A stretch of 64,000 bases of DNA. Origin: Haloarcula salina (GTDB lineage: Archaea; Halobacteriota; Halobacteria; Halobacteriales; Haloarculaceae). A program made the translations under genes and the position numbers. Below the pieces are notes generated by a model. It made no database searches. It was not told the DNA's origin and was given only the letters and a program-made list of their open reading frames with translations. The first letter of the stretch is position 1. Every line of letters begins with the position of its first letter. The stretch covers positions 434,001-498,000 of the forward strand of contig NZ_WRXL01000002.1 of NCBI RefSeq assembly GCF_010119195.1, written 5' to 3'. Of the stretch, positions 17,848 through 33,970 are shown piece by piece.

Positions 17848-17919
17848 GGGCTCGTAGATCAGGGGTAGATCACTCCCTTGGCATGGGAGAGGCCCCGGGT
17901 TCAAATCCCGGCGAGTCCA
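17848..17919 (+). tRNA. tRNA-Ala (anticodon GGC)
   Basis: 72 bases fold as a full cloverleaf: acceptor GGGCTCG/CGAGTCC with discriminator A, anticodon stem CTCCC/GGGAG around loop TTGGCAT (anticodon GGC, reads GCC), and the T-arm CCCGGGTTCAAATCCCGG. No encoded CCA. Its 3' end is the left attachment site of the provirus; integration keeps the tRNA intact. Confidence 0.96.
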
Positions 17920-17920
17920 T
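17907..17920 (+). repeat. attL core (14 bp)
   Basis: CCCGGCGAGTCCAT, spanning the end of the T-arm and acceptor stem of tRNA-Ala plus one base. The same 14 bases recur at 35054-35067. Confidence 0.9.
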
Positions 17921-18068: not shown

Positions 18069-18167
18069 GTGAGGGAGTGGCGGGCGCTCTGCTACTACTG
18101 CGGGCTTCCCATCAACCACGACAGCCAGCCGTGTCCGGCTCTGCAAGACGGGGTGTGCCGCCCATGA
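18069..18167 (+). CDS. Small Cys-rich (zinc-binding) protein, provirus left end
   Basis: The GTG at 18069 gives 32 residues: CYYC, then C and C in PCPALQDGVC, i.e. four cysteines in zinc-ribbon style spacing. The stop overlaps the next ATG by four bases (ATGA). The frame is open back into the tRNA, so the true start is uncertain; the part before 18069 does not look coding. Such tiny zinc proteins are common in haloviruses; role unknown. Confidence 0.45.
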   Translation: MREWRALCYYCGLPINHDSQPCPALQDGVCRP

Positions 18168-18718
18168 GCCGCGCGAGTCGTGGCTGGCAATCGAGCGACG
18201 ACCTCCCCGGCCAGATCGGCGGCCCGCCGACGCTGTCCATGCCCGACGACTGGACGCTGTCGACGGCGTGGGAGCGCGCCCAGACCGAGAGCGACCGAGG
18301 CGGCGCTATCAACGACGCCGAGCGTGTCGTCTACCTCAGTGGCGGGGACAGCACTCACCGCGTTCTGTGGGCGCTTACGGGCCGCACGCTCGCCGCTGAA
18401 TGCGACTGCGCCGGCTACCAGTACCACGGCGAGTGGTGCGCTCACGTCGCCTCACTGTGGTGGCAGTGGGTCCGTGGCGGGATCGTCGTCACGCACCTCG
18501 ACACCGGCCGCCAGTACCCAGCGCCACCAGCGTGGCTCCGCCTTGACGACGACCCGACCGCCTTCGACCACCTCACTCCTGCCGAACTCGACGCCTACCT
18601 GACCTGCGAACTCGGGAGCCTCGGCGTTCGGGAGTACGCTCGTCTCTCCGGTCGCTCGCCCGGTACGATCGGGAACCTGCTTGCATCTGCCCGTGACGGG
18701 ATGGAGGGCCGCCGATGA
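18164..18718 (+). CDS. SWIM zinc-finger protein
   Basis: 184 residues. The SWIM motif C-x-C-x(n)-C-x-H is visible near residues 85-101 (CDCAGYQYHGEWCAHV), preceded by VLWALTGRTLAAE as in other haloarchaeal SWIM proteins. The C-terminal part ends in a helix-turn-helix-like stretch (VREYARLSGRSPGTIGNLLA) resembling a sigma-70 region 4 or XRE recognition unit, which suggests DNA binding. Starts and stops overlap neighbours (ATGA at both ends). Likely an early or regulatory viral gene; substrate unknown. Confidence 0.78.
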   Translation: MSRASRGWQSSDDLPGQIGGPPTLSMPDDWTLSTAWERAQTESDRGGAINDAERVVYLSGGDSTHRVLWALTGRTLAAECDCAGYQYHGEWCAHVASLWWQWVRGGIVVTHLDTGRQYPAPPAWLRLDDDPTAFDHLTPAELDAYLTCELGSLGVREYARLSGRSPGTIGNLLASARDGMEGRR

Positions 18719-18861
18719 CGCGCCCGCACGCCCGCCCGCTAGCGCGAGACCTTCCGGCGACCCCACGGGGGGCTGTCCTACAAGTACCAACATCGGCGAC
18801 CATCACCGCGCTGTATGGGGATTCGGCCCCGTCTTACGAGGAGGTGGCTAGTCAGACATGA
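18715..18861 (+). CDS. 48-residue hypothetical protein
   Basis: ATG overlaps the SWIM gene's stop and its own TGA overlaps the next ATG (ATGA both times). This double overlap is the main support. It is Pro/Arg-rich at the start (MTRPHARPLARDLPATPRG), with an acidic end (SYEEVASQT). No recognisable domain. Confidence 0.5.
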   Translation: MTRPHARPLARDLPATPRGAVLQVPTSATITALYGDSAPSYEEVASQT

Positions 18862-19313
18862 CCGGCGGTTCCCAGCTCCACGAGGAGACCGGCAGTGACA
18901 AGATCACGTTCCGACTGCCGACCCACCTGAAGGAACAGTTCAAGGAGCAGGTCGACAACATGAGCGCCGACCTCGAAAACTACGTACGCCGCACGGTCTC
19001 GGAGCCGACCGAGGACGGGGGCGTGAAACCCTACGCCGACCCCGACGACCGAGACCTCGCCGTCGCCTACCGGACGCTGTGCAAGAAGCGCTCCACGAGC
19101 GGTATCGTTCGGGGCGAGACCGCCAAGCGGGCACTGGCGCAAGCCGTCGACAACGTCGATCAGAAAGACGCTCAGCGCCTTCTCAACCGACTGGCGAAGC
19201 GTGGGTACGTCCACCTACAGAACGGGATTCCGCCGAGCGATTACATGGCTGTCCACGTTCGGCCGTTCTCCCGACACGACCCCGCTCAGGGAGGTGTGAA
19301 AGCCAATGTGTGA
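18858..19313 (+). CDS. Ribbon-helix-helix plus winged-helix-like regulator
   Basis: 151 residues. Residues 13-50 read as a ribbon-helix-helix unit (DKITFRLPTHLKEQFKEQ followed by ADLENYVRRTV). The C-terminal part has a predicted winged-helix arrangement (RGETAKRALAQAVDNVDQ, then LLNRLAKRGYVHLQNG) where the last strand pair forms the wing. Two DNA-binding folds in one small protein suggest a viral transcription regulator. Coupled to both neighbours by overlapping codons. Domain calls by eye. Confidence 0.7.
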   Translation: MTGGSQLHEETGSDKITFRLPTHLKEQFKEQVDNMSADLENYVRRTVSEPTEDGGVKPYADPDDRDLAVAYRTLCKKRSTSGIVRGETAKRALAQAVDNVDQKDAQRLLNRLAKRGYVHLQNGIPPSDYMAVHVRPFSRHDPAQGGVKANV

Positions 19314-20040
19314 GCAGTCTGTGAGCGGTACTGACCGAATCCTTCACCTCTTCGCAGATACTGGAATCGAGGACGAAGTGCTGCACACGTTCGGCGACGT
19401 GACGCGGGTCGGAATCGACCCGGAGCCGAACCCGTTCAGCACCGTTATCCAGGCCGACGCCTGCGACCCGCCGCTCAACGGCGGATTTGACCTAGCCTTC
19501 GCACACCCGCCGTGCCAGCGATGGAGTGTCGCCACAGAAGGCGGTGGCGGAGACCCGGAGGACCACCCGGACCTCATCAACGAGGCGCGCGAGGTTTGCG
19601 AGCGGCTGGCCGACCACTACGTCATCGAGAACGTGCGAGACGCCCCGCTTCGGGATCCGGTAGTCATGTCTGGCGGTCAATTCGGGCTGCCGATTCACTA
19701 CCCGAGAGCCTTCGAAACGTCGTTCCCTATTGACCACCCGAAGCCCGTTCCCAGATGGTCGCCGGACGTTGGCCCGCTCGCCGAACAGGGTAAGTCGGGG
19801 AACGCCTGGGTCGGTCGAAACGTCGGCTGGCGGCTGGCAAAGGGCTACGGCCACGACTGGCCCGCTCGACCGCTGAAGCGCCACGGAATACCGGCGGCGT
19901 ATATCCGACGGCTGCTGTACTGGTGGCTGGCGGCCCGAAACGGCGATACCAGGCCTAAACAGTCTCGATTAGTCGCAGCGACTGACGGCGGAAACGACCA
20001 CAGTCTACAAGCGGACATTAGCCAGTCTAGCGACACGTAG
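19306..20040 (+). CDS. C5-cytosine DNA methyltransferase-like protein
   Basis: 244 residues. Motif IV with the catalytic Cys is clear (FAHPPCQRWS), and motif VI is YVIENVRDA. The SAM-binding motif I region is degenerate (ILHLFADTGIEDEVL has no GxG), and no QxRxR motif VIII or large target-recognition domain is present, so it is shorter than typical C5 enzymes. It may protect viral DNA from host restriction, or be a divergent or inactive relative. Last gene of the left module; its stop is followed by a 100-bp AT-rich regulatory gap. Confidence 0.65.
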   Translation: MCEQSVSGTDRILHLFADTGIEDEVLHTFGDVTRVGIDPEPNPFSTVIQADACDPPLNGGFDLAFAHPPCQRWSVATEGGGGDPEDHPDLINEAREVCERLADHYVIENVRDAPLRDPVVMSGGQFGLPIHYPRAFETSFPIDHPKPVPRWSPDVGPLAEQGKSGNAWVGRNVGWRLAKGYGHDWPARPLKRHGIPAAYIRRLLYWWLAARNGDTRPKQSRLVAATDGGNDHSLQADISQSSDT

Positions 20041-20141: not shown

Positions 20142-21290
20142 GTGACAGAGCGAATTGAGTATGGTACGAAAGCGACCGCAGACGCCGCCAGAAATCGACA
20201 CAGCGAGTACCTGTGTACTGACGACGATAGGCGACTGAAAACTGTCGCATACAGCAGCGACACACCCGACAGCGTACTCGAAACGGAACGACTAGAAGCG
20301 GCCGACGGCCGGGCCGAGCGAGAGGACGGCCCCGGACAAGTACCGCTTTCCGAGTCCGAGAAGGACCGAATCGACTTCTCGCAGGAGCGGGCCAACGTCC
20401 CCCACGCCAAAGCGGTGAAAGGTATCGCACAGGCCGAGGGCGTCGAGGACTGGGTGAGTTACTACGACGGGACGTTGACCGTCGACGAACACCGCGAGGT
20501 GATGGCCGACGCCGCGACCGAGAGCGGGAAGCGGTCGGCCGACGAAAGCGCTGACGAGAAAGCAGGACGAGCGGCGCGAGCGGCCCAGTCGAACCAGTGT
20601 GACCACGCCCAAGGGCACTGTGAGAACGGCGACCCCGAAGCCTGCGAATTCCTGTCTCAGACCTGCGGCTACTCCGAGCAGGAGATCGCGCAGTTCGTCG
20701 ACGAGAGTCAGCCCGACCGGAGCGAGCAGCAGGAACTTGTGACGGTCGGCGGTGGCGACTACCCGGAGATGGAAGTACGACCGGAGACAGCCGGCGCTCT
20801 CCGGCGCGGTTGGCAGGGGTACAAAGCGGGTATCTCAGACCTCGAAGCGGCGCTATCGCAAAGCCGCGAAGCGGTCATCAACGCCCGGCAGGCGTGGCAA
20901 GCGATCAACCGGATTCGGGAAGCCAACGGTCAGGAGCCGATGCACCCCGACCGGCTGCATACGCTTCTCGATGCGCTCGATGGGATGCCCGGAAGCATCC
21001 CGACTGTCAGAACGCTGGATCACTTCGACCAGGAGGGAGCGACCGACCCGGCCGAGGTAATCGAGACCGACGACCAGCGCACGCTCTCCGGCGAGCGAGC
21101 GGACGACCAAGCGCGATTGGCTGATGGTGAGCGCGGTGAGCAGGGGCAGGGAGAGGTGGTCGACGTATCTGAGGAGAATCCCGGCGGTCTGCTGGCCGAT
21201 GAGCGCGCTCAGACCGCCGGTTCGGGTGAGACAGAGCAGCAGATACCGGACGCCTTCGCGGTTGCTGAGGGCGGTCAGGAGACACTATGA
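20142..21290 (+). CDS. Provirus protein with Cys/His motif, unknown function
   Basis: 382 residues from a GTG, first gene of the long rightward operon. Highly acidic and Glu/Gln/Ala-rich. A compact Cys/His cluster near residues 155-180 (CDHAQGHCENGDPEACEFL and a following TCGYSEQEI) could bind zinc. A helical segment near 225-290 (KAGISDLEAALSQSREAVI) may form coiled coil. The C-terminal 80 residues look disordered. No replication, polymerase or capsid motif that I recognise. As the largest viral protein it is a candidate for replication or virion assembly. Confidence 0.72.
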   Translation: MTERIEYGTKATADAARNRHSEYLCTDDDRRLKTVAYSSDTPDSVLETERLEAADGRAEREDGPGQVPLSESEKDRIDFSQERANVPHAKAVKGIAQAEGVEDWVSYYDGTLTVDEHREVMADAATESGKRSADESADEKAGRAARAAQSNQCDHAQGHCENGDPEACEFLSQTCGYSEQEIAQFVDESQPDRSEQQELVTVGGGDYPEMEVRPETAGALRRGWQGYKAGISDLEAALSQSREAVINARQAWQAINRIREANGQEPMHPDRLHTLLDALDGMPGSIPTVRTLDHFDQEGATDPAEVIETDDQRTLSGERADDQARLADGERGEQGQGEVVDVSEENPGGLLADERAQTAGSGETEQQIPDAFAVAEGGQETL

Positions 21291-21841
21291 ACGGACCAGA
21301 ATGCCCCGCAGAGGGGTGCGACTACAACGAGAACGGTGAGAAAAGCAAGCAGAGCGTCCGGCGACACATCAACGCGAAGGCCGACGACGCTCACAGCGAC
21401 GTGCAAGCACTCAGGAGCGCGCTGAACCGCCCCGATGAAGGGGAACAGAACGGTGCTGAGGGCGCTCCCGACGACACCGAGGACGACGAGCAGGACGAAG
21501 CGGCGCAAGAGGGCGCTGAAGTGGACGAAAACACCGAAACAGAGCAGCAAGAGATGGACCAATCAAGCGAGTACGAGCAGCAGGTCGTCGCCACTACGGG
21601 CGAGGAGAGCACCGACGAGGGGACCGAAACCGAGGGACAGCAGGGGAATCAGACCAACCAGACGACCAGCGGTCGAGGGGTCCCTGTACTGCCCCTGATG
21701 GCCGGTCTTGTCCTGCTCGTCGTGCTCGCTATCGCCCTCTCCGGTGGTGACGACCAGCCGACTGAGGTAGAGAGCGAAGTCGTCGAAGATACCGACGCCG
21801 AGCCGGTCGTTGACGACCCCGAACCGGAGGTGGCATGGTGA
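21287..21841 (+). CDS. Zinc-finger and single-TM acidic protein
   Basis: 184 residues. N-terminal C2H2-like unit (CPAEGC, then H31 and H-type positions in RRHINAKADDAH). A long acidic linker (residues 45-130) leads to one transmembrane segment near 137-157 (PLMAGLVLLVVLAIAL) and a short acidic C-terminus. Probably a virion internal-membrane protein; the finger suggests it contacts DNA or another protein. Overlaps both neighbours. No family recognised. Confidence 0.68.
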   Translation: MNGPECPAEGCDYNENGEKSKQSVRRHINAKADDAHSDVQALRSALNRPDEGEQNGAEGAPDDTEDDEQDEAAQEGAEVDENTETEQQEMDQSSEYEQQVVATTGEESTDEGTETEGQQGNQTNQTTSGRGVPVLPLMAGLVLLVVLAIALSGGDDQPTEVESEVVEDTDAEPVVDDPEPEVAW

Positions 21842-22377
21842 GCGAAGCAGTCACCGAGGAGACCAGCGACGAGGCCACCGAAGAAGCGCCGGACATCGAC
21901 CCCGACGAGCAGGCCGAAATCTCGCTCGATGACCTCGATGTAGACCCGGACGAGGTAGAGGAGCAAGCGGGGGCAGGAAACGACGAGAGCGAACCGGACG
22001 AGGAAACGGACACGGACGAGCAAGGAACCGACGAGACGGCGAGCCAGCCGACGACGCCCGACGGAGAGACGTGGGGCGACCAGTACGTCTCGCTGCTGGC
22101 ACTTCTGCTCGGAGAGATCGCCGAATCGACCGAGGGTGAACCGGGCAAGACAGCCGAGGACATCGAGGAGTTGGCCCGCGCTCCCCCGGTCAAACTGGAC
22201 GACTCGGTGGACCGCTGGCTACAGGAGGCCGGGATGGGGCAGGACATCCCGCCCGGCAAAGCCGTGGCACTCGGTACAGCCGGTCTCGTCGCGGTGGTTC
22301 TGCTGACCGAGACCGACGTAGCGAGCGACCTGATGGACGGACTGAGCGACCAACTGAGCGGTGCAGACCTATTCTAA
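21835..22377 (+). CDS. Acidic single-TM provirus protein
   Basis: 180 residues. The first 75 are very acidic and probably disordered. A more structured part follows (YVSLLALLLGEIAEST; VDRWLQEAGM) with a hydrophobic segment near 145-162 (AVALGTAGLVAVVLL). Likely a virion or assembly protein associated with the internal membrane. The start overlaps the preceding stop; a GTG three bases later is equally possible. Confidence 0.65.
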   Translation: MVSEAVTEETSDEATEEAPDIDPDEQAEISLDDLDVDPDEVEEQAGAGNDESEPDEETDTDEQGTDETASQPTTPDGETWGDQYVSLLALLLGEIAESTEGEPGKTAEDIEELARAPPVKLDDSVDRWLQEAGMGQDIPPGKAVALGTAGLVAVVLLTETDVASDLMDGLSDQLSGADLF

Positions 22378-22381
22378 GACC

Positions 22382-22957
22382 ATGATGGGCAAAATCAAGC
22401 AGATTCAAGAAGCAAAGCACGAGATCGAGAACCCTCACGAGAGCGACCGACTCCGCGCTCTGGCCGAGATACTGGCCGAAATCGAGACAGCACAGCGTGA
22501 CGCCGTCATGGACCAGCGAGAGGCGGCGGGTATCGACCCCGACGACGGCCGTGAGCGAATTGACAAGGAGGCGCGGACCAGCGAGATTCTGGACCTCGTC
22601 GATGGCTACGGCCCCGGTGGGCGGCCGCTCTCCGAGGTGTGGCTGGCACGGTGCGCCGAGATCGACGGTGACCCGGCGGCGCTCTCTCACTACGCCGCGA
22701 TGGACGGCGACCAGTGGGAACAACAGATCGAGCGATGGGCCGACACCTACCGTAACAGCGCCGGGGAGATCGACGCGACCGACCGGGACCTGGCCGACCA
22801 TCACATCAGCAAGAAGTGGGGTGTCTCGCTCCCCGAGTTCGAGCGCATCGTCGTCGAGTTCGACCCGTCCGACGCGCTTGAGGACCTGCTGGCCGGTCCG
22901 TCCGAGGCGACTGAACGGGCCATCAAAGCGAACACGGAGGCACTGGCAGAAGCGTGA
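22382..22957 (+). CDS. Hypothetical provirus protein before the packaging ATPase
   Basis: 191 residues from the first of two adjacent ATGs. Mostly helical, soluble and acidic (IKQIQEAKHEIENP; LRALAEILAEIETAQRD). The frame extends back to 22361 inside the previous gene, but the ATG at 22382 follows the stop directly. The GTGA overlap couples it to the packaging ATPase, so a packaging accessory or vertex role is plausible but unproven. Confidence 0.66.
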   Translation: MMGKIKQIQEAKHEIENPHESDRLRALAEILAEIETAQRDAVMDQREAAGIDPDDGRERIDKEARTSEILDLVDGYGPGGRPLSEVWLARCAEIDGDPAALSHYAAMDGDQWEQQIERWADTYRNSAGEIDATDRDLADHHISKKWGVSLPEFERIVVEFDPSDALEDLLAGPSEATERAIKANTEALAEA

Positions 22958-23754
22958 ACCTCGCGTTTGTCGCACAGAGCGGCTGGGGCAAATCGTACCA
23001 CGCTCAGGCGTGGATGGAGAGCAACGCCAGAGAGTACGAGGCCCTCGTCGTGATGGACTACTGCGCGGAGTATCGTGGGTTGGTCAAGGCGGGTCTTGCC
23101 GACCATCTCATCGTCGGCCCGCTCGAAGCCCAGTTGTCGGTCTCGGACTGGATGCAGGTCCTACAGGCCAACCCTCACATCGTGCTGGAACGGCACAAGG
23201 CGGAAATCGGGACCGACCGCTGGCGGGAAATCTGCACCCGCATCGCGTCGGCCGTCCGCCGCCTCGACCGGGATCAGCTCGTCGTCGTCGACGAAGCCCA
23301 CTTCGTCGCACCGCAGCGCCAGAAGCTCCCGCAACCGGTGAAGGAACTGGCGACGACCGGTCGGGGAGCAGGCACGTCGACCATGTGGGTCACACAGCGT
23401 ACGGCAGAGATCGACAAGACGATTCTCACGCAGTGTCAGGCCCGGATGATAGGCGGCTTCGACGGCGGAGAGATCGGGCCGCTGGCCGGTTCGATCCAGT
23501 ACCCGGCTGACCTGCACGACCCCGGTGCTGACCTCCCTCCGTCCCGTGTCCCCGATGAACTGCTTCCGACCGGCAGGGAGCGGCCTTCGTCGCTCCAGAA
23601 GCACAAGGACGAAAGCGGTTCCATCACCGGCACAGAGTGGATATACAGTGACGACGACGGCGAGCGTCAACGGGTCAATACGGGTCGTGTCTCGATGAAT
23701 AGTACACACTACGGAAGCGAAGGGAACGACCTCAACGCACCAGAATACGCATGA
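22954..23754 (+). CDS. Genome-packaging ATPase (HerA/FtsK-like, A32-type)
   Basis: 266 residues. It begins almost at the Walker A motif (AQSGWGKS, residues 7-14), with Walker B near 109-116 (LVVVDEAH), and a sensor or arginine-finger region (MWVTQRTAEIDKT). The lone P-loop with an immediate N-terminal start is usual for packaging ATPases of the PRD1/SH1 type viruses. Start is a GTG overlapping the previous stop. It lies three genes before the two candidate capsid genes, as in SH1. The C-terminal 70 residues look flexible. Confidence 0.85.
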   Translation: MNLAFVAQSGWGKSYHAQAWMESNAREYEALVVMDYCAEYRGLVKAGLADHLIVGPLEAQLSVSDWMQVLQANPHIVLERHKAEIGTDRWREICTRIASAVRRLDRDQLVVVDEAHFVAPQRQKLPQPVKELATTGRGAGTSTMWVTQRTAEIDKTILTQCQARMIGGFDGGEIGPLAGSIQYPADLHDPGADLPPSRVPDELLPTGRERPSSLQKHKDESGSITGTEWIYSDDDGERQRVNTGRVSMNSTHYGSEGNDLNAPEYA

Positions 23755-23891
23755 TGACACAGATAACCCTACGCGGCGACGACAGCGACCGATTCGAGGA
23801 AGCCCGCGAGCGCATCGACCGCGACCTCCCCGGTAGCACTCCGAATAACGCTGAAGTGGTCCGCATCCTGATGGACGACTCCCAGTACTGA
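23751..23891 (+). CDS. 46-residue ribbon-helix-helix-like protein
   Basis: ATG overlaps the ATPase stop. The sequence opens with a strand (TQITLRGDD) followed by two helices (DRFEEARERID; NAEVVRILMDD), the pattern of small RHH/CopG proteins. It may regulate the capsid genes or bind packaged DNA. After its stop the short gap 23892-23937 contains a T5 run (near 23921) that could act as a weak terminator. Confidence 0.6.
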   Translation: MMTQITLRGDDSDRFEEARERIDRDLPGSTPNNAEVVRILMDDSQY

Positions 23892-23937
23892 CCGAAGCAT
23901 CTCGAAGCGACCCGCTCCGATTTTTCGTCGGTTCTTG

Positions 23938-24231
23938 ATGGTAGACCCCGGTAAACGGCGGGAATGCATGGATTTTGGTAATGCAATGTCGACGCTCGCA
24001 TCCGAGGACTACGTCGTAGACGTGGCCCTCGTGGTTGCCGGGTTCGTCGGCCCCGCAGTCGTCAAGTACGGAGTCGAGACCAAGATGGGCAAGAACCTGC
24101 CCGACGAGGCGTACGGCGCAACCGTCGCGGTCGGCGGCGCTCTCTACGGCGGAGAGGGCCGGAAGGTCGCGCTCGGTGGCGGTGTCCACGTCGTGGAGGC
24201 CCTTCGAGAGCGATTCACGGGAGGTAACTGA
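23938..24231 (+). CDS. Small membrane protein, VP12-like position
   Basis: 97 residues from the ATG at 23938; ATGs at 23968 and 23986 would give shorter forms starting MDFGN or MSTLAS. Hydrophobic stretches VDVALVVAGFVGPAVVKYG and AYGATVAVGGALYGG suggest one or two membrane passages. In SH1 a small membrane protein (VP12) sits between the ATPase and VP7, and this gene has the same size class and place. Assignment is by synteny, not by detected homology. Confidence 0.62.
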   Translation: MVDPGKRRECMDFGNAMSTLASEDYVVDVALVVAGFVGPAVVKYGVETKMGKNLPDEAYGATVAVGGALYGGEGRKVALGGGVHVVEALRERFTGGN

Positions 24232-24761
24232 TGTCCGAGGACCTATTCGCGTCTGAGGGCAGCACGGCCGAGGCGGTCACGGTCGCACAGAACGCGCCGG
24301 CCAGCCCCCGGCCGACGCCGATTCTCGAAATCACGCCGGAGCGCGGCCAGTTCCTCCGGTTCCTCAACTACGTCGCTCAGGGCGAGCAGGACGGCATGCC
24401 CGTCTACATGGACCTGCGCGACTCCAACGGCGACCCGCTCCCGACCAACACTTCGCTGTACTTCGCGGTCGAACCGAGCGGCCACGAAAGCACGATGAAG
24501 GTCTCGGAGGTGCTGAAGAACATCAGCCAGTACGTCAAGCTGGGCATCTCCGACCAGCGCAACGTGGACAACATCGACAGTGTGAAGATCGAGCTTCAGG
24601 CCCCGGAGAACGCCCCGAACGGCGGCGATTCCGTGCCGAAGATCGACGTACGCGACATCGACACGCTGTACCTCATGTGCGACTCAGCCGCCCAAATCGA
24701 CTGGTCGCAGTCCGAGCTCTACATCGAGAGCAACGCCGTCGAGCAGCACGGACGGAGGTAA
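24231..24761 (+). CDS. Candidate small major capsid protein (VP7-like)
   Basis: 176 residues, close to SH1 VP7 (about 185). A short flexible N-terminus leads into a strand-rich single domain (ILEITPERGQFLRFLN, VYMDLRDSNGDPLPTN, SVKIELQAPEN, VRDIDTLYLMC), compatible with a single jelly roll. A strong ribosome-binding sequence (GGGAGGT) lies just before the ATG, more obvious than for most neighbours, as expected for an abundant virion protein. Followed immediately by the second capsid candidate. Structure inferred. Confidence 0.75.
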   Translation: MSEDLFASEGSTAEAVTVAQNAPASPRPTPILEITPERGQFLRFLNYVAQGEQDGMPVYMDLRDSNGDPLPTNTSLYFAVEPSGHESTMKVSEVLKNISQYVKLGISDQRNVDNIDSVKIELQAPENAPNGGDSVPKIDVRDIDTLYLMCDSAAQIDWSQSELYIESNAVEQHGRR

Positions 24762-24765
24762 ACCG

Positions 24766-25491
24766 ATGGGTCTGATGAATCGACTGGCCGACGCTCGACG
24801 CCAGCCCGGCCACATCACGCCCGACGAGATGGACAAGTCCGTCAACTCGCAGGGCCAGCGGTCCCGAATCGGCCGCTACCGGGCCACCACGGCCCACATG
24901 CTCCGCGAGGGGCGAGGCAACCCGCTCAAGATCGCCGTCCCCGCCTACGAGTCGTTCACGACTGACGGGACGGCTGACAACACCGAGACGTTCAACCTCG
25001 CCCACTCGGTCACTGACACGCCGGTCACGCAGCCGGTCGTGGTCTGGCTCGACGGGGCGTACTACGGGACGCCCGACGCGGTGGACTTCGACGCTGATAC
25101 CATCGACGTGACCGACTCGGGGACCGCAAGCAACGTTCACGTCTACTACATCAGTGACGCGGCCGCCTCTCTCGAAATCCGCAAGGCGGCGAGCAACGCC
25201 GACACCGGCTCGCAGCGGGTCTATACGGGCAACCTCGGTCTGATTCACGAGGCCCCGCAGATCGAGCAGCCCGAGTACCTGCGGCTCAACCAGACGCCGC
25301 TTCACCCGTGGATCGGCACCGACATGACCGTCGACGTCTACCTCGACGCGCCGTACACCGTCCGCTGGACGGACAACGACGGCGACGGGACCGAGCCGAC
25401 GAACGCACTCCTGCACGTCCCCGCCATGATCGGCCAGAGTGAGATCAGCGGACTCACCTCGGCGGTCGGGGCGGACATGGGACGGCAGTAA
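24766..25491 (+). CDS. Candidate large major capsid protein (VP4-like)
   Basis: 241 residues, near SH1 VP4 (about 232). Basic N-terminal arm (NRLADARRQPGHITPDEMD), then a strand-rich domain (NPLKIAVPAYESFT, QPVVVWLDGAYYGTPDAVDF, VHVYYISDAAASLEIRKA, TVDVYLDAPYTVRWTDND). The pairing of two consecutive single-barrel proteins after a packaging ATPase is the hallmark of Halopanivirales. A GGAGG ribosome site precedes the ATG. With its partner it would build the hexagonal capsomers. Confirmation needs a structure-based comparison. Confidence 0.78.
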   Translation: MGLMNRLADARRQPGHITPDEMDKSVNSQGQRSRIGRYRATTAHMLREGRGNPLKIAVPAYESFTTDGTADNTETFNLAHSVTDTPVTQPVVVWLDGAYYGTPDAVDFDADTIDVTDSGTASNVHVYYISDAAASLEIRKAASNADTGSQRVYTGNLGLIHEAPQIEQPEYLRLNQTPLHPWIGTDMTVDVYLDAPYTVRWTDNDGDGTEPTNALLHVPAMIGQSEISGLTSAVGADMGRQ

Positions 25492-25506: not shown

Positions 25507-25782
25507 ATGATTTCGGTAGAAGCTACGCCCGTTTGGGAGGAGGGACAGCACCCGGCCAGCGGCGGCAACAGCGGACAGAGTGGGGGAACCACCATGTCCG
25601 TCACGTCGACCGAGACCGACGCCGACGCGGTGGCCGGCAGTAACAGCGAGACGAACGGGCCGCTCACGGCCCACGTCGCACAGTCCGAGTGGACGACCGA
25701 CGACGTGATGATGGCGCTCTCGGCGCTGAACGTCCTGATGTTCGCCGCCCTGCTGTACCTGACCGTCGAGGGGGGTGCCTGA
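25507..25782 (+). CDS. Small single-TM virion protein candidate (VP13-like position)
   Basis: 91 residues. The first 60 are acidic, Ser/Thr/Gly-rich and probably exposed; the C-terminal MMALSALNVLMFAALLYLTV is a transmembrane helix. SH1 also has a small membrane protein right after VP4. An internal ATG at 25594 would give a 62-residue form. Likely part of the internal membrane. Confidence 0.65.
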   Translation: MISVEATPVWEEGQHPASGGNSGQSGGTTMSVTSTETDADAVAGSNSETNGPLTAHVAQSEWTTDDVMMALSALNVLMFAALLYLTVEGGA

Positions 25783-25783
25783 G

Positions 25784-26314
25784 ATGGGTGCCTCTCGGAC
25801 GTTCACCGAGGCGTTCCAGCGGTTCCCCGACAACGAGCAGGCCCGGCAGGAGTGGCTTGCAGGCAGTGACAGCTACGACGGCGACGGGACGGACAACAAC
25901 AACAGCAACAGCGACCTCGACCTCATCGAAGGCGACGGCATCGGCGGCGACAACTCGTTGGACTCCAACGAGCAAGCGGCCGAGGACTTCGCTGAAAGCA
26001 TCGCCACTGGCGAGTACGAGGGGCACGCTCCGGATTCCGAAGTGAACGCGGCGCTCGGGTCCGATGGTGACGCGGTGGCCGTCGCGGCGACCGCCGACGA
26101 AATCGAGCAGGCCGGAGGGTCCGTACTCTCGTACGGGGCCGACAACTCCGCTCCCGGTACGACCGGCGCGACCGGCGGCCCGTCGAGCGTCCTGTCGGCC
26201 AGCCTGTCGCCGTCGACGGCGGCGCTCGGCGGAGACCTGACGACGCCGCTCGGCGTTTTCGCCGGTATCCTGCTGCTGGGCATCGCCTACTTCAAGATGG
26301 AGGGGTCGGCGTGA
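25784..26314 (+). CDS. Virion protein candidate with C-terminal TM
   Basis: 176 residues. Acidic and Asn/Ser/Asp-rich (DNNNSNSDLDLIEGDG) with low-complexity stretches; a hydrophobic C-terminal helix (LGVFAGILLLGIAYF) followed by KMEGSA. A GGGGGG-type ribosome site precedes the ATG. The frame reads three codons further upstream within the previous gene, but the ATG is clearly placed. Same plan as the neighbours: soluble domain plus C-terminal anchor. No family recognised. Confidence 0.68.
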   Translation: MGASRTFTEAFQRFPDNEQARQEWLAGSDSYDGDGTDNNNSNSDLDLIEGDGIGGDNSLDSNEQAAEDFAESIATGEYEGHAPDSEVNAALGSDGDAVAVAATADEIEQAGGSVLSYGADNSAPGTTGATGGPSSVLSASLSPSTAALGGDLTTPLGVFAGILLLGIAYFKMEGSA

Positions 26315-26817
26315 CCGAGTGGCTACCCGACAACCTTGAGCCCGAGGACGGTACACTGGCCGACACTGCGGCCGAGGCGGCCGGAACCTCGCTCGACTGG
26401 ACAGTGACGCCGGTCCAGTCAGCCACCGGAGTAGGCCCCACACTCTCTGAGACGGCCGATTTCGCATACGGAGCGTACGGGACTGTCCCCGAGGAGGGAT
26501 ACAACGATGACGCTGTGCTGACCGGCCCGGCCCGGGACCTGTACGACTACGCGTTTGACTACGATGGCGAATGGGGCGGCCAAGAGGACCAGCACGACAT
26601 GGCTGGGCCGTCGATTGACTTCGGCGCGCTACTCGACACGTCGGACGGCGACCCGGTGTTTCGCCGGCAGTCCGACCCGGACGCCGGCCCCGGTCTTTTC
26701 GGGTACGGCATGGTCGGGGTCAAGGAAGCCGGCGGTATCCTCGCCGCGCTCGTGCTTCTGTGGCTTCTCGCTCCCTACGCACAGGTGGCCGCTTCGGCCA
26801 CGGGAGGGAGCGCGTGA
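26311..26817 (+). CDS. Virion protein candidate with C-terminal TM
   Basis: 168 residues from a GTG overlapping the previous stop. Strongly acidic soluble part with many Tyr/Asp (YDYAFDYDGEWGG), then a C-terminal helix (AGGILAALVLLWLLAPYA) and a short Gly/Ser tail. The repeated architecture over three consecutive genes suggests successive membrane proteins of the virion. Function not recognised. Confidence 0.68.
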   Translation: MTEWLPDNLEPEDGTLADTAAEAAGTSLDWTVTPVQSATGVGPTLSETADFAYGAYGTVPEEGYNDDAVLTGPARDLYDYAFDYDGEWGGQEDQHDMAGPSIDFGALLDTSDGDPVFRRQSDPDAGPGLFGYGMVGVKEAGGILAALVLLWLLAPYAQVAASATGGSA

Positions 26818-27014
26818 TGATCCCCGACCCGATCATCTACCAGACGGCCGCCATCCTCGGCGCGTCCGGTCTCGCCGGTCTGGCGCTCGAAGCCCGCTGG
26901 CAACACAAGGCGGTCCTGCGACACGAGCGGCAACTGTCGGGAACCGACTACCGGCGCGGTATCGTCTCGCTGGTGAACGAGCATCTGCGCGGCAAGGAGG
27001 ACCATGAGAACTAA
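26817..27014 (+). CDS. Small membrane-associated provirus protein
   Basis: 65 residues. N-terminal hydrophobic segment (IIYQTAAILGASGLAGLAL) followed by a charged helix (EARWQHKAVLRHERQL). Starts at ATG overlapping the previous TGA. Size and place suggest a minor virion protein. Confidence 0.62.
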   Translation: MIPDPIIYQTAAILGASGLAGLALEARWQHKAVLRHERQLSGTDYRRGIVSLVNEHLRGKEDHEN

Positions 27015-27099
27015 CGTCAGCGCGACGGTCGAGGAGATGAGCGAGGAGGAGATCGAGGAGCAACGGAGCCGTATCGACGGCGAGAGGGGCGCGGCATGA
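27004..27099 (+). CDS. 31-residue acidic peptide
   Basis: Supported by a strong AAGGAGG ribosome site ending three bases before the ATG, and by overlaps with both neighbours (its TGA shares bases with the next ATG). Very Glu-rich (VEEMSEEEIEEQ). No domain. Confidence 0.5.
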   Translation: MRTNVSATVEEMSEEEIEEQRSRIDGERGAA

Positions 27100-27455
27100 T
27101 CGTGCCCGAGCCGGCCCCCGACGACGTGCCGTACAACGACCCCATCACCCGGTCGGTCGACCCCGGACAGCAGTTGATCGTGACCTTCGAGCCGACCCAG
27201 CAGGTCACGGAGTTCGTCTTACCGACGCTGGCCGTCTCGAAGCACCCCAGCAGCAGTTACGAGGTGTGGCGCGACGGGGAGAAGGTCTACGGCCCCGCGC
27301 CGATCCCGCCGACGGACATTGACGACCTGACCGCGACGTGGCTTCCCGCCCGGCGGTTCAGCACCAAACTCCGTATCATCGTCCGCAACCTGTCGGACGC
27401 GACGACCCGCCGGTACAGTATCCAGCCTATCGGCTGGGAGGTGACGGGACGGTGA
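27096..27455 (+). CDS. Hypothetical beta-rich provirus protein
   Basis: 119 residues, strand-rich with no membrane helix (QQLIVTFEPTQQVTEFVLP; TKLRIIVRNLSDATTRRYSI). Shape and position after the membrane proteins fit an external vertex, spike or penton protein. The ATG overlaps the previous stop and its own stop overlaps the next GTG. Confidence 0.62.
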   Translation: MIVPEPAPDDVPYNDPITRSVDPGQQLIVTFEPTQQVTEFVLPTLAVSKHPSSSYEVWRDGEKVYGPAPIPPTDIDDLTATWLPARRFSTKLRIIVRNLSDATTRRYSIQPIGWEVTGR

Positions 27456-27838
27456 CGCTCGAAACCAACACGAAGGTAGAGCGCCTCAACGTCGTGCAGG
27501 ACTCCGAGGGCAACGACGCGGCCCCTGCGACCGAGCAGGAGCAGCAGGCCATCTCGTCGGCTCTCTCCAACAACGACAGCCTCACGGCGTTCACCCACTC
27601 GACCAGCGGGACCGACGCCGAGCCGCTACCCGAGAACGCCGTCCCCGACGGCGTGGAGGTGCTGATGTACGCGAAGGACGCGAACGGCGGTTTCGTGTGG
27701 GTCGGGGACTCGGCTACGCAGGCGGTCCCCATCAAGCCCGGCGGGTCCCTGACGCTCGCAGTCTCGGACACGTCCGCTATCTACGTCCGCACGCCGACCA
27801 GCGGCGACGAAGTGGGGGTGCTGTACGAGGATGGCTGA
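27452..27838 (+). CDS. Hypothetical beta-rich provirus protein (spike/vertex candidate)
   Basis: 128 residues from a GTG. After a helical start (PATEQEQQAISSALSNNDSL) come strands (GVEVLMYAKDANGGFVWVGD; SLTLAVSDTSAIYVRTPTSG), a pattern of small beta-barrel attachment domains. The longer frame beginning at 27338 lies inside the previous gene and is ignored. It precedes the best receptor-binding candidate, so both may form a spike complex. Confidence 0.63.
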   Translation: MTLETNTKVERLNVVQDSEGNDAAPATEQEQQAISSALSNNDSLTAFTHSTSGTDAEPLPENAVPDGVEVLMYAKDANGGFVWVGDSATQAVPIKPGGSLTLAVSDTSAIYVRTPTSGDEVGVLYEDG

Positions 27839-28391
27839 CCTGAGCAACCCCACCGGAGGCGGCGGCTTCGACTACGTGCAGGCCGAGCCGCCCGGCGACC
27901 CCGTAGAGGGTCAAGAGTGGTACGACACCGACGACGACGGGGCGTACGTCTACGACGGCAGCACGTGGGTCGAGCAGACCGTCGTGGACCACTCGCAACT
28001 GTCTGGGGTCGGAGCAAACGACCACATCGACAACCTAACCGACATTCCGACCCGCAACCATGACGACCTGAGCGGCATCAACTCGGGAGACCACCACAGC
28101 CGCTACACGGACAGCGAGGCGCGGTCGGCAAACTACACGGTGGTAGCTACCGGCTCCGTGACCAAGAGCAAGACGCAGAACCACATGTATCAGGACGGCG
28201 GCCGGACGGACAACTCTCCCGCGACTCAGTTTGTGGTGGAGCATCCCACCGGGAGCGGCGATAAATATTACGTTCACACGGAGGCTCACGGCCAGACAAG
28301 CGGGATTCTCTACGAGACAGTCTACATGTCCTACAAGGACTCCAACGGGGACGCCGTGGTAAACTGGGAGATTCGGAGGGTAGACGCATGA
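27831..28391 (+). CDS. Candidate spike / receptor-binding protein
   Basis: 186 residues. The N-terminal part (GQEWYDTDDDGAYVYDGSTW) and the middle repeat-like stretch (LTDIPTRNHDDLSGINSGDH, then HSRYTDSEARSANY) match the style of tail-fibre and spike proteins, where such units form trimeric stalks. The C-terminal 80 residues are beta-rich and aromatic and could be the receptor-binding head. The ATG overlaps the previous stop. SH1-type viruses carry spike genes at this relative place. Confidence 0.65.
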   Translation: MADLSNPTGGGGFDYVQAEPPGDPVEGQEWYDTDDDGAYVYDGSTWVEQTVVDHSQLSGVGANDHIDNLTDIPTRNHDDLSGINSGDHHSRYTDSEARSANYTVVATGSVTKSKTQNHMYQDGGRTDNSPATQFVVEHPTGSGDKYYVHTEAHGQTSGILYETVYMSYKDSNGDAVVNWEIRRVDA

Positions 28392-28621
28392 TTCCGGTTG
28401 ATTCGGTACTCATCCAGTACGACGAGACAGGCACGGTACTGCTGACGTGGCATAGCTACAACACTCCGGACGAAAACGGGGAGCTAACGCCTGCAGAACC
28501 CCCTACTCAGGAGAACCAGTATGGCTCTGTCGTTGTCCCGACGGACTCGCTACCGGATGCCCCCGTCGGTCAAATGACAGTGGACGACCCGGACGACCCG
28601 CAGGCGGTGACTCTCAAATGA
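28388..28621 (+). CDS. Hypothetical provirus protein
   Basis: 77 residues, ATG overlapping the previous stop. N-terminal strands (DSVLIQYDETGTVLLTWHSY), then a Pro/Asp/Glu-rich stretch. Base composition is slightly less GC-rich than its neighbours. It may be a cap or chaperone for the preceding spike candidate. Confidence 0.58.
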   Translation: MIPVDSVLIQYDETGTVLLTWHSYNTPDENGELTPAEPPTQENQYGSVVVPTDSLPDAPVGQMTVDDPDDPQAVTLK

Positions 28622-28890
28622 TGCAAGCAGCAATCACTCAGATTCCGACGCCAGAAGCACAGACGCTCGCATACTGCCTACTCAGCGGACTCGCGGGGCT
28701 GGCAGTCCCGACGCGGTACGGCATGGAACGCATCGAGGGCTTCGGCCGGCTCGCGGCATCGAAGCTCCCGTACAAGTCGCCGCCGGGGACCGACAAGGAG
28801 ACGGCCCTGATTCGGGCCACTCGCGGCCAGCCGCCGGCCGAAGATCGCGACGACCAGGAGAGCGCGACCGACGCGGACGGAGGTGCCTGA
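28618..28890 (+). CDS. Small membrane-associated provirus protein
   Basis: 90 residues. A hydrophobic N-terminal segment (TLAYCLLSGLAGLAVPT) followed by a basic/amphipathic part (KLPYKSPPGTDKETALIRA) and an acidic tail. Organisation resembles the gene at 26817. Starts with two ATGs overlapping the previous stop. Confidence 0.6.
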   Translation: MMQAAITQIPTPEAQTLAYCLLSGLAGLAVPTRYGMERIEGFGRLAASKLPYKSPPGTDKETALIRATRGQPPAEDRDDQESATDADGGA

Positions 28891-28891
28891 G

Positions 28892-29365
28892 ATGGGGCGC
28901 ATCGTTGTCGACGGGAGCGGCCCGCCCTACGTCGCTGGTGGCGACGACTACCGCATCACCGTCGACGGGGACGTTGTGAAAGCGTCCGGCGCGACGGACC
29001 AAGACAGCGTTGTCGGCGGACAGATCGGTGGGAAGATCGGGGACGGGACGGACTCCTACGAGTTCGAGGGGACCGTAATCAGCGCGTCTATCCCGTCGCA
29101 CTCGGACCTGTACGTGGACGGTCAGAAGGTCTCGCCGAGCGAGCTACCCATCCGCTCGGGCAGCACGTCGTCCGGGTCGTCCGGGTCGTCCGGGTCGTCC
29201 GGCAGCTCCGGTTCGTCGGCTCTGACCGCCTCGACGCCGACCGCTCCGACGGGCAGCCCGTCGACGCCAGCCCCGGTGGCGGCGGGACTCGGTGAGGGCA
29301 ACACGGCGTTGCTGGCCGGCACGGCGGCGCTCGCACTGCTGGCGGTCTACATGGTGCAGTCGTGA
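28892..29365 (+). CDS. Virion protein candidate with SGS repeat linker and C-terminal TM
   Basis: 157 residues. A beta-rich head (residues 1-90) is followed by a low-complexity linker of repeated Ser-Gly-Ser triplets (about residues 92-108), encoded by tandem 9-base units at 29168-29200. A Thr/Pro stretch and a C-terminal transmembrane helix (ALLAGTAALALLAVYMV) end it. A flexible tether between membrane and an outer head domain is the natural reading. The gap before the ATG is one base after the preceding TGA. Confidence 0.66.
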   Translation: MGRIVVDGSGPPYVAGGDDYRITVDGDVVKASGATDQDSVVGGQIGGKIGDGTDSYEFEGTVISASIPSHSDLYVDGQKVSPSELPIRSGSTSSGSSGSSGSSGSSGSSALTASTPTAPTGSPSTPAPVAAGLGEGNTALLAGTAALALLAVYMVQS

Positions 29366-29775
29366 GATTCCCGTACCACACAGTCCCGGATGGGAGCGCG
29401 GCGCTTCCGCACCACTACGTGACGGCGCTGCTGGCCGTACTGGTACCCATACTGATAGTGTGGGACGACCACCGACAACGGGAACCGTGGATAGTCCTGT
29501 GCGGCGTACTGGGTGGTCTGGCGAGCTTCGGGTTGGTGTGGCCCCGCTATCCTCGCCTCGGCGCAGTACTGTCGCTGGTTGCGGTTCTACTGGTGATCCT
29601 AGCTCCACTCCGGCCGGTGTGGTCGTCCTACTGGCCCCGCCGACAGAGGGTTGCGGTGATGTTCCTGGGACTAGTCGCGGCCGACGACGTGATCCAGCAT
29701 GCGTTCGGGTGGTGGGTGCCGATTGACGCTGCATGGAAGGCTGGTGGTCGGGAGCTACTGACCGCGGCAGGTTAG
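29362..29775 (+). CDS. Polytopic membrane protein, end of long viral operon
   Basis: 137 residues from a GTG overlapping the previous stop. About four hydrophobic segments (ALLAVLVPILIVW; PWIVLCGVLGGLASFGLVW; LSLVAVLLVILAPL; VAVMFLGLVAADDVIQHAF). Last gene of the operon that began at 20142. Release or membrane-scaffold function is possible but there is no motif to decide. Confidence 0.65.
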   Translation: MRFPYHTVPDGSAALPHHYVTALLAVLVPILIVWDDHRQREPWIVLCGVLGGLASFGLVWPRYPRLGAVLSLVAVLLVILAPLRPVWSSYWPRRQRVAVMFLGLVAADDVIQHAFGWWVPIDAAWKAGGRELLTAAG

Positions 29776-30926: not shown

Positions 30927-31012
30927 TGCAATCTTCCCCGATCTGACCCCTGTTGACCCCCGAGTTGACCGAAAAAACTAGATGTTTTGCAATAGAACTG
31001 GGGAACGAGTGC

Positions 31013-31669
31013 ATGCGTCTGAAGGACTACGACAACGACGACGGGAAACGGGTGTGGCTGTCGGACGACGAACTAACGCGATTCATCGAGCAGGCCGAGA
31101 CACCACACCAGCGGCTCGCGTTCCTCCTGGCCGGTCGGGTCGGACTCCGGCGGTCGGAAATCATCGAGGTGTGTCCGCAAGACCTCGTCAACGGGCCGAC
31201 CGGCGACCATATCCGCGTCTGGGAGAGCTACGCGAAGCGAGACAAGTACCGAGAACCGCCCATCCCGCAGGAAGTCGTCACCATCGCGGAGACGCTGGCG
31301 TACCAGCAGGACGACGACGAGCCGCTGCTGGACGTAGCCGGGTCGACCGTCTACCGCTGGGTCCGGCGTGCAGCTGACAAACTGGAAGAGGAAACCGGAG
31401 ACGAGGGCTGGCAGTATCTCGACGTCCACGATCTCCGCCGGACCTGGGGAACGTACCTACTGGAACAGGGCGTAATCCCGTCAGTCGTGATGTCCTTCGG
31501 CGGCTGGGAGGACTGGGATACGTTCAGAAAACACTATCTCGGAGAGTTCAGCCCGGAGGCGATTCGACGAGAGCGCGGCAAGGTCGACTTTCTCGAAGGC
31601 GGCGACGAGAGTGCGGAGGTGGTTCATCCTGGTACGATGCCAGCGACATCACACCACTCCGCGGACTAA
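31013..31669 (+). CDS. Tyrosine recombinase, catalytic domain only
   Basis: 218 residues from the ATG at 31013; the frame opens earlier at a TTG (30953), which is less credible. Catalytic residues: Arg-46 (GLRRSEI), H139-x-x-R142 (VHDLRRTWGTYL), Trp in FGGWEDWDTFRKHYL, and Tyr-175. The N-terminal SAM-like DNA-binding domain usual in phage integrases is largely missing, so this is a minimal recombinase. It is not next to an end of the provirus; the 19-bp repeats upstream are its nearest candidate sites. It could work as a resolvase, invertase or cassette recombinase. Confidence 0.82.
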   Translation: MRLKDYDNDDGKRVWLSDDELTRFIEQAETPHQRLAFLLAGRVGLRRSEIIEVCPQDLVNGPTGDHIRVWESYAKRDKYREPPIPQEVVTIAETLAYQQDDDEPLLDVAGSTVYRWVRRAADKLEEETGDEGWQYLDVHDLRRTWGTYLLEQGVIPSVVMSFGGWEDWDTFRKHYLGEFSPEAIRRERGKVDFLEGGDESAEVVHPGTMPATSHHSAD

Positions 31670-31720: not shown

Positions 31721-31942
31721 ATGAGCACTATCCGAGTCACCGACGAAGTGAAAGAGCGGCTGCGGGACCTGAAGCGGGACGATGAGAGCTTCAACGACCT
31801 ACTGGACCGGCTTAGTCGAAGCGAGAAAGACGTAGAAGCAATTGCTGAATCGCTTAGTGAACTTGGTGGAGACGACTTCGCTGAGCGGACGAAAGAAGCA
31901 CACGAAGAACTGAACGAATCGCTGGAGCAGCGCACCGAATGA
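31721..31942 (+). CDS. VapB-type antitoxin (RHH-like)
   Basis: 73 residues. The N-terminal strand-helix unit (STIRVTDEVKERLRDLKRDD) is the standard haloarchaeal VapB/CopG-like DNA-binding start, followed by ESFNDLLDRLSRSEKD and an acidic C-terminal helix expected to wrap the toxin. TATA-like ACGTATACATATG lies immediately upstream. The stop overlaps the toxin ATG. Confidence 0.82.
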   Translation: MSTIRVTDEVKERLRDLKRDDESFNDLLDRLSRSEKDVEAIAESLSELGGDDFAERTKEAHEELNESLEQRTE

Positions 31943-32340
31943 TTGTTCTCGACCGGGATATACTCGTCAAGCTTGTCGAATCTAATTCGGAGATAATCGA
32001 CCACCTGAAGCAGTATCGCGGCGAGGAGTGGACTATCCCGTCGTTAGTCGCTTGGGAGTCGTACAAGGCCCAGGACTCTCGACAGGAGATGTTGCAAGCA
32101 CAGCGGCGCTTGCAGTCCGATTTTGACCGGATACTGAACTTCTCCGACGACGCTGCGCTTGAAGCCGCTTACCTACAGGAACGGCTCCAGTCACAAGGTA
32201 AGTCTCTCGACACTGTCGATCTACTGAACCTCGCAACTGCACACAGCGAAGGTGCGACGTTTGTTACCCATAACAAGCGTGACTTCGACAAAGATGCGCT
32301 ACTTGAACTCGCGGATGTAGACGTTGTACACACGGAATAA
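31939..32340 (+). CDS. VapC-type PIN-domain toxin
   Basis: 133 residues with the PIN acidic set visible: Asp near residue 5-7 (VLDRDILVKLVES), Glu in VAWESYKAQD, Asp in LDTVDLLNLATAH and Asp in THNKRDFDKD. PIN toxins are Mg-dependent RNases that cleave tRNA or rRNA. Overlap with the antitoxin by four bases supports the pair. In a provirus it may stabilise the element or act in superinfection immunity. A T6 run at 32376-32381 follows as a likely terminator. Confidence 0.85.
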   Translation: MIVLDRDILVKLVESNSEIIDHLKQYRGEEWTIPSLVAWESYKAQDSRQEMLQAQRRLQSDFDRILNFSDDAALEAAYLQERLQSQGKSLDTVDLLNLATAHSEGATFVTHNKRDFDKDALLELADVDVVHTE

Positions 32341-32408: not shown

Positions 32409-32582
32409 ATGGTGAGCAAAACGCTACACGTGACATTCACGATGATGCCAGAAATGTACGACCGACTCGAAGAATCGAAACCAGAGGGCATTACGATGGA
32501 CCAATATATTCGAGAGACACTGAAAGAGGAAATAGACGAATCAGACCTTCACGGCAATATTCACACTACAGACGAATCCTAA
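32409..32582 (+). CDS. Small RHH-like protein
   Basis: 57 residues from the ATG at 32409; the frame extends to 32382 but with no better start. Strand TLHVTFTMMPEMYDRLEES then the helix MDQYIRETLKEEID fit a ribbon-helix-helix regulator, possibly an orphan antitoxin. It converges with the repressor at 32566: their 3' ends overlap by 17 bases. Confidence 0.65.
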   Translation: MVSKTLHVTFTMMPEMYDRLEESKPEGITMDQYIRETLKEEIDESDLHGNIHTTDES

Positions 32583-32913
32583 ACTTCACACCTGCCTCGA
32601 TCCAGTTCGGCGGTGTCGCGTACCGATCCTCGAAGACCTTACTCGGCGTTGGTCTTGGGCAGTGTCTCGCGTCAAGCTCGCCTTTCAGATACAGGATACC
32701 CTCGCTCGTGAGATCGTACAGGTCTCCGCTGATGGGCGAGAGTAGGCCAGCGTACTGAAGCCACTTGCACCGATCTCGAATGTGTCCAGCGGAGACATTG
32801 AAGCCGCGTTCACGGGCGAGAATACCCGGTGAAGCAAATCCGTTCTCGCGTATCCACTCCATGACACGCTCATCTACCTGAACCATCCACGGTGCGGGTT
32901 TTCGTGGTGTCAT
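32566..32913 (-). CDS. PhiH1 repressor-like winged-helix protein
   Basis: 115 residues. Winged-helix core with MEWIRENGFASPGILARERG as the first helices, AGHIRDRCKWLQYAGLLSPI as recognition helix, and the family ending DLYDLTSEGILYLKGELDA. This Y-x-x-T-x-x-G-x-x-Y-L-x-G-E-hydrophobic-D signature is that of the repressor of halophage PhiH1 and many haloviral regulators. Its ATG abuts the stop of the paralogue upstream; both are read leftward from the intergenic region at 33232-33350. Confidence 0.8.
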   Translation of the reverse strand: MTPRKPAPWMVQVDERVMEWIRENGFASPGILARERGFNVSAGHIRDRCKWLQYAGLLSPISGDLYDLTSEGILYLKGELDARHCPRPTPSKVFEDRYATPPNWIEAGVKFRIRL

Positions 32914-33650: not shown

Positions 33651-33970
33651 ACGGGGACCGTGTCGACCCCGAAAACCTGCCCCAGAACCCGCGCTACACG
33701 CCGGCTCTCGTGCAGGTTCGTAAGCAGGGACCGGTCTACGTCGCTGACTACCAGACACTCCAGAGCGGCTGGGTGCGTGTCACGGAGTGGGAGGGCCACC
33801 GTGTGAAACTTCCGCCCCACAAGGTCGCGGCGATCCGCGAGGTGCGGACGGAAACCTACGGGAGCCGATCTGACCCGGAGGGCCTGAAGGTCCGCGTCGC
33901 GGACGACGAGCGCCGCGAGCAGGCGAGTGCCGACGAGTCGGCCGGTATGGCCGTGGTCGCGGATGACTAA
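33647..33970 (+). CDS. Hypothetical protein before the integrase
   Basis: 107 residues. Central part is beta-rich (TPALVQVRKQGPVYVADYQT; GWVRVTEWEGHRVKLPPHK), reminiscent of a small SH3- or MarP-like fold, with a flexible acidic C-terminus. Overlaps the integrase start by eight bases, so it may be an excisionase-like partner; there is no clear helix-turn-helix to prove it. Confidence 0.6.
   Translation: MNGDRVDPENLPQNPRYTPALVQVRKQGPVYVADYQTLQSGWVRVTEWEGHRVKLPPHKVAAIREVRTETYGSRSDPEGLKVRVADDERREQASADESAGMAVVADD

Follow-up and report, generated by a model that had tools for sequence, protein, structure and literature searches.

Packaging and capsid genes of a predicted integrated SNJ1-group provirus in Haloarcula salina

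Packaging ATPase and capsid genes

The analysed window is a 64,000-nucleotide stretch of the Haloarcula salina genome (contig NZ_WRXL01000002.1, positions 434,001 to 498,000 of the forward strand); the host genome is 3.79 Mb in size, and its genus takes in Haloarcula marismortui, H. marina, H. sebkhae and H. pellucida. At positions 22,954–25,491 of the window, open reading frames (ORFs) of 266, 46, 98, 176 and 241 amino acids (aa) follow one another on the plus strand, all present as listed in the initial annotation, which took them for the capsid module of an integrating virus related to SH1 and SNJ1. The first encodes an ATPase of the FtsK/HerA superfamily whose N-terminus, MNLAFVAQSGWGKS, contains a Walker A-like stretch from residue 7, as annotated, and GGAGGT sites lie upstream of the 176- and 241-aa ORFs, in agreement with the strong ribosome-binding sites described there.

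The ATPase and the two putative capsid proteins were compared by tblastn with 50,697 phage records. SNJ1, NVIV1 and HJIV1 were the sole matches of the ATPase (40–42% identity, coverage 96–98%, E 1e-51 to 6e-54). The small protein matched PB7 of SNJ1 and the corresponding small major capsid proteins in NVIV1 and HJIV1 (36–37%, E 1e-24 to 2e-26), and the large one matched SNJ1 PB2 and the large capsid proteins of its relatives (33–37%, E 2e-31 to 9e-36). The block as a whole is collinear with that of SNJ1 (ATPase, 55-aa ORF, VP6, PB7, PB2) and recurs in many genomes. Given this collinearity, this recurrence and best E-values of 6e-54, 2e-26 and 9e-36, the gene set is not a product of chance. For the 46-aa protein, which had been annotated as a ribbon-helix-helix protein, Pfam and PHROGs returned no convincing family match, although it is conserved in relatives.

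Searches of Pfam, PHROGs and NCBIfam likewise gave no convincing match for either capsid protein, and both were therefore revealed only by direct comparison with viral proteins and by profiles. In single-sequence phmmer searches against the PDB, the large protein reached merely E 0.019 for SH1, and the small protein returned nothing. A profile built from 30 homologues of the large protein matched VP4 of SH1 (E 3.4e-6), HHIV-2 (0.004) and HCIV-1 (0.009), as the initial annotation had anticipated; the small-protein profile placed P23-77 VP16 on top at a non-significant E of 0.028. When low-confidence AlphaFold models were compared with the whole PDB by Foldseek, the large protein yielded E-values below 0.001 only for capsid proteins of SH1, HHIV-2, P23-77 and HCIV-1 (best 6e-7), and the small protein found HCIV-1 VP7 first (1.5e-4), followed by SH1 VP7 and P23-77 VP16. 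Homology to PB7 and PB2, together with modelled folds of low confidence that resemble known single-jelly-roll capsid proteins, thus identifies the 176-aa protein as the predicted small and the 241-aa protein as the predicted large major capsid protein of a virus of the SNJ1/SH1 type, and the annotated capsid module with its jelly rolls is upheld. Neither outcome that the initial annotation had named as a refutation, a fold other than a jelly roll or an ATPase of the conjugation or plasmid kind, was observed.

Purifying selection acts on the ATPase and the genes of the capsid block: in comparisons with four relatives, the ratio of nonsynonymous to synonymous substitution rates (dN/dS) was 0.08–0.13 for the ATPase and 0.08–0.30 for the ATPase, capsid and neighbouring module genes (22,954–25,491).

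Ends and gene content of the provirus

In congeneric genomes, the tRNA-Ala gene found to the left of the block continues straight into the homologue of the window sequence from 35,054 on, and eight empty sites in congeners display this joined, unoccupied arrangement. Because a 14-bp attachment (att) repeat is present at 17,907 and at 35,054 and the empty sites show the joined arrangement, the size of the provirus, taken as the span between the att sites, is 17,147 bp (17,907–35,053). A generic repeat search, with its minimum length of 18, did not report the 14-bp att; the empty-site comparison revealed it. The SNJ2-type integrase ends 80 bp before attR. The stretch at 22,954–25,491 is very probably the packaging and capsid module of this complete-looking SNJ1-group provirus, whose features are given in Table 1.

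Table 1 Features of the provirus and its integration site (window positions)
Feature	Position	Strand	Evidence or remark
tRNA-Ala (GGC)	17848..17919	+	Integration target, intact at provirus end; ARAGORN; same gene in congeners
attL, CCCGGCGAGTCCAT	17907..17920	+	tRNA 3' end; 14-bp direct repeat of 35054-35067; empty sites in congeners
SWIM zinc-finger/sigma-70 region 4-like protein	18164..18718	+	Pfam SWIM above cut-off; SNJ1 ORF9 and ORF7 match adjacent parts
Conserved 151-aa protein, weak winged-helix similarity	18858..19313	+	75-91% in several relatives; phrog_22505
DNA methyltransferase	19306..20040	+	phrog_363; 75% to protein of pleolipovirus HRPV-9
SNJ1 structural protein VP2 homologue	20142..21290	+	42% over 359 columns, E 6e-73
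SNJ1 structural protein VP3 homologue	21287..21841	+	E 3e-16
SNJ1 structural protein VP4 homologue	21835..22377	+	E 4e-20
NVIV1 ORF2/HJIV1 ORF19/SNJ1 VP5 homologue (structural)	22361..22957	+	E 5e-11, 7e-13; SNJ1 VP5 only 0.002
Packaging ATPase, FtsK/HerA superfamily, 266 aa	22954..23754	+	40-42% to SNJ1/NVIV1/HJIV1 packaging ATPases
46-aa protein at place of SNJ1 gp24	23751..23891	+	Conserved 57-89% in relatives; SNJ1 order
Small hydrophobic protein, SNJ1 VP6 homologue, 98 aa	23935(23938)..24231	+	35%, E 2e-9
Predicted small major capsid protein with single jelly roll, SNJ1 PB7 homologue, 176 aa	24231..24761	+	37%, E 2e-26 to 4e-26; Foldseek HCIV-1, SH1 VP7
Predicted large major capsid protein with single jelly roll, SNJ1 PB2 homologue, 241 aa	24766..25491	+	37%, E 9e-36; SH1 VP4 profile; Foldseek
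SNJ1 ORF28 homologue	25507..25782	+	E 6.5e-7
Variable block 3' of capsid genes	25775..29365	+	Conserved 119-aa protein (27096-27455), variable protein (27831-28391)
Hydrophobic 137-aa protein, kept in lineage	29362..29775	+	31-74% in relatives
Second, short tyrosine recombinase, catalytic domain only	30953..31669	+	Pfam Phage_integrase
VapB (31721-31942) and VapC/PIN (31939-32340) toxin-antitoxin pair	31721..32340	+	Pfam VAPB_antitox, PIN
Two winged-helix regulators (32566-32913, 32914-33231)	32566..33231	-	phrog_2440 transcription regulator; 29-39% to HRPV-9 regulator
SNJ2-type tyrosine integrase	33963..34973 (ORF listed from 33927)	+	48% over 345 aa to IntSNJ2; Pfam integrase domains
attR, CCCGGCGAGTCCAT	35054..35067	+	Followed by sequence adjoining tRNA in empty congeners

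The methyltransferase has a match in only one of the related proviruses compared, at 29%; its PDB matches were spurious. The short tyrosine recombinase, whose identity is 92–96% in one set of relatives but about 44% in another, is a mosaic, recently exchanged gene. In the variable protein, short repeated motifs (HSQLSG, HDDLSG) were observed near conserved genes; this protein is a candidate receptor-binding or host-recognition spike. The winged-helix pair is a putative lysogeny control.

In the cycle that we propose, the integrase would insert the element by recombination between a 14-bp attP and the tRNA-Ala 3' end and would also excise it as a circle, while the winged-helix pair would hold the provirus silent. 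Upon induction, the ATPase would package circular double-stranded DNA (dsDNA) into a capsid that encloses an internal membrane and is made of the two single-jelly-roll proteins, and host recognition would come from the variable genes that follow those for the capsid.

Integrating relatives and the state of the element

According to a passage of PMC4284463, HaloMukP1, HaloMukP2 and the integrated Haloarcula provirus IHP have genes in common with SNJ1; since IHP is reported there, the window element is a further integrating Haloarcula member and not the first. The provirus of H. marismortui ATCC 43049 (G020:C8) is probably the published IHP, for which that passage gives no coordinates. G020 was assigned to H. 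marismortui because 6 kb of its 33,303-base contig agree at 100% with NC_006389.1, and Halomicrobium mukohataei was likewise recognised from identical plasmid stretches. It has the same layout as the window element, an SNJ2-type integrase, a tRNA att and 87% identity over the ATPase and both capsid proteins, but it is inserted in tRNA-Pro (GGG), is about 19.2 kb long and carries a different integrase (40%) and different accessory genes. Over these three core proteins, the window element is 40–47% identical to two Halomicrobium mukohataei elements. The layout tRNA – SWIM – structural genes – integrase – att is common to H. marismortui, H. sebkhae, H. marina and genome G033, where att repeats of 15–22 bp are situated in tRNA-Pro or tRNA-Ala. 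The list of IHP-type features used here was derived from the compared loci and is not a published definition; the window element has a tRNA 3'-end att, an SNJ2-type integrase on the right, a SWIM gene on the left and an SNJ1-like module.

A further relative is plasmid unnamed2 of Haloarcula marina DT1 (NZ_CP100406.1), with 65% core identity, the same gene order and an SNJ2-type integrase, which differs in existing both as an 18-kb circle and as a tandem chromosomal insertion at tRNA-Pro. The chromosome (G019:C1; L068, L069) contains two provirus copies in tandem, 17.86 kb apart, to which the 18,001-bp circular plasmid record is 99.8–100% identical. At its att junction, the circle carries 157 bp in duplicate, perhaps an overlap that was left untrimmed, and a search of the circle for SNJ1 RepA gave no match. 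The tandem and the circle support excision within the lineage, short of proof for the window copy. Elements of this kind were already known from the H. marismortui provirus; the present copy adds a clear view of the mode of integration, together with a relative that exists as a circle.

Head-to-tail tandem SNJ1-type proviruses were observed in three genomes of different genera: H. marina (G019:C1), G415:C1 (2766856-2828450; L101-L104) and G193:C1 (886559-930000; L105-L107). The tandem periods are 17.86, about 22.0 and 22.3 kb, and the copies are 98.8–99.97% identical; they represent either real tandem integration or an unresolved assembly of integrated and circular forms.

An alternative reading is that the element is a defective remnant whose capsid genes persist after excision, replication and virion formation were lost. 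A remnant would fit the lack of a recognisable replication protein and the low-GC stretch at 29.8–33.6 kb (51%), where some ORFs are present in few relatives, which suggests insertions. It is at odds with the full-length state of the conserved genes, the att repeats and integrase that are still in place, and the purifying selection; moreover, the circular relative likewise has no SNJ1 RepA match. We therefore regard a remnant as rather unlikely. The sequence comparisons place the element as a new and probably functional member in an integrating branch of the SNJ1 group that is already known but unclassified, a placement that follows from the 87% identity to the H. marismortui copy. Some observations nevertheless weigh against a functional SNJ1-group provirus. 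Searches of the element for SNJ1 RepA and RepSNJ2 gave no match, and no replication initiator was recognised; the models of the two capsid proteins, built on seven-sequence alignments, have predicted local distance difference test (pLDDT) scores of 57.6 and 59.3; and the virion functions are carried over from SNJ1 by homology. The provirus offers precisely defined ends and an integration system that can be tested, and its close relatives include intact elements, one of them present as a circle in a named strain.

Relationship to SNJ1, SH1 and pleolipoviruses

Ten SNJ1 genes have collinear matches at E ≤ 1e-6, VP5 has a weak one, and the order VP2-VP3-VP4-VP5-ATPase-small ORF-VP6-PB7-PB2-ORF28 is the same as in SNJ1. 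The family Simuloviridae consists of one genus with three viruses of Natrinema and Haloterrigena, which are extrachromosomal proviruses (PMC12642351). Virions of this family are icosahedral and contain an internal membrane. These viruses, SNJ1, NVIV1 and HJIV1 (genus Yingchengvirus), share with the window element the collinear structural module, 38–39% core identity and a comparable size: their circular dsDNA genomes measure 16–19 kb, while 17,147 bp lie between the att sites here and a related element, that of H. marina, is an 18-kb circle. They differ in that none of the three has an SNJ2-type integrase, whereas the window element is integrated in tRNA-Ala and carries one. The SWIM and sigma-70 region 4-like domains, fused in the window element, are encoded by separate genes (ORF9 and ORF7) in SNJ1 and its relatives. 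Members of Yingchengvirus share 17–21 homologous ORFs, against the ten SNJ1 ORFs found here, and the RepA (HUH) rolling-circle initiator of SNJ1 and HJIV1 was not detected in the window element by the search for SNJ1 RepA; since NVIV1 also has no RepA, this trait is not strictly defining. Because the ICTV text (PMC12642351) gives the three members as extrachromosomal and the element is integrated, we assign it to the SNJ1 group and do not count it among the classified simuloviruses. From its core identity and about ten shared genes, it could plausibly represent a new genus.

An integrated member of Sphaerolipoviridae proper, that is, an SH1-like virus, has in its favour the two-capsid-protein architecture shared by fold and profile with SH1, HHIV-2 and HCIV-1, the weak match between the large-capsid profile and SH1 VP4, and 27% ATPase identity to SH1 over 173 aa. 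We find it very improbable nonetheless, as core identity is about 20–22% to SH1 and HCIV-1 versus 38–39% to SNJ1, and the ATPase tree sets the SH1 pair apart from every SNJ1-like row. Capsid-protein trees that include SH1 and P23-77 are unreliable at depth owing to long branches, and the placement therefore uses the ATPase tree and the identities. Moreover, Sphaerolipoviridae have linear dsDNA genomes of ~30 kb (30.9 kb in SH1) with terminal repeats and terminal proteins, in contrast to a 17-kb att-bounded provirus. The initial annotation had also used the SH1 gene order as its model, but the ATPase is divergently oriented in SH1 and HCIV-1, and in SH1 it is encoded on the other strand and separated from VP12-VP7-VP4 by five ORFs; the co-directional arrangement therefore agrees with SNJ1 and not with SH1. 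Of the annotated kinship to SH1 and SNJ1, the integration (att and empty sites) and the SNJ1 side were borne out, and membership of the SH1 family was not. The chance that the element is instead plasmid-like or conjugative, with a HerA-like ATPase that merely resembles a viral one, is negligible: weak, partial HerA matches exist, but the full-length matches are viral packaging ATPases, the full-coverage plasmid matches are SNJ1-type records (the remainder cover 18%), and the homology of the two capsid genes downstream already refutes it.

Pleolipoviruses are enveloped vesicles without a capsid. The integrase is 48% and 46% identical to those of the betapleolipoviruses SNJ2 and HRPV-9, respectively, and HRPV-9 also shares a winged-helix regulator (39%) and the DNA methyltransferase (75%); no structural or replication genes of SNJ2 or HRPV-9 were found in the window element. 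SNJ1-type capsid genes thus stand beside pleolipovirus-type integration genes in one element, and integration and regulatory genes are common to capsid-bearing and capsid-less archaeal viruses. A wider proposal, which we hold to be evenly poised, is that the integrating Haloarcula branch would form a separate genus or larger taxon of SNJ1-related viruses, would have its integration module and part of the regulatory one in common with pleolipoviruses through exchange, and would alternate between a chromosomal, a tandem and a circular form by means of an unrecognised replication initiator.

The large-capsid profile had matches in 63 of the 391 sampled Halobacteria genomes, spread over 30 of 86 genera, so the SNJ1 group is far larger than its taxonomy. 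Within the family to which the window belongs, a single-sequence search gave matches in 26 of 146 genomes. In IMG/VR scans, which rely on exact peptide seeds, the capsid alignment retrieved only three contigs, and single sequences retrieved none. In one Halomicrobium mukohataei locus (L096; G059:C2 445001-463000), a RepSNJ2-like (Rep-Arvir) match of 38% over 225 aa lies less than 18 kb from an SNJ1-type capsid gene; it may reflect a swap of the replication module or a neighbouring pleolipovirus-type element. In four genomes of a single genus (G156, G248, G397 and G166; g24), the large capsid gene contains one in-frame TAG, which points either to a pseudogene common to these genomes or to TAG being read in an unusual way.

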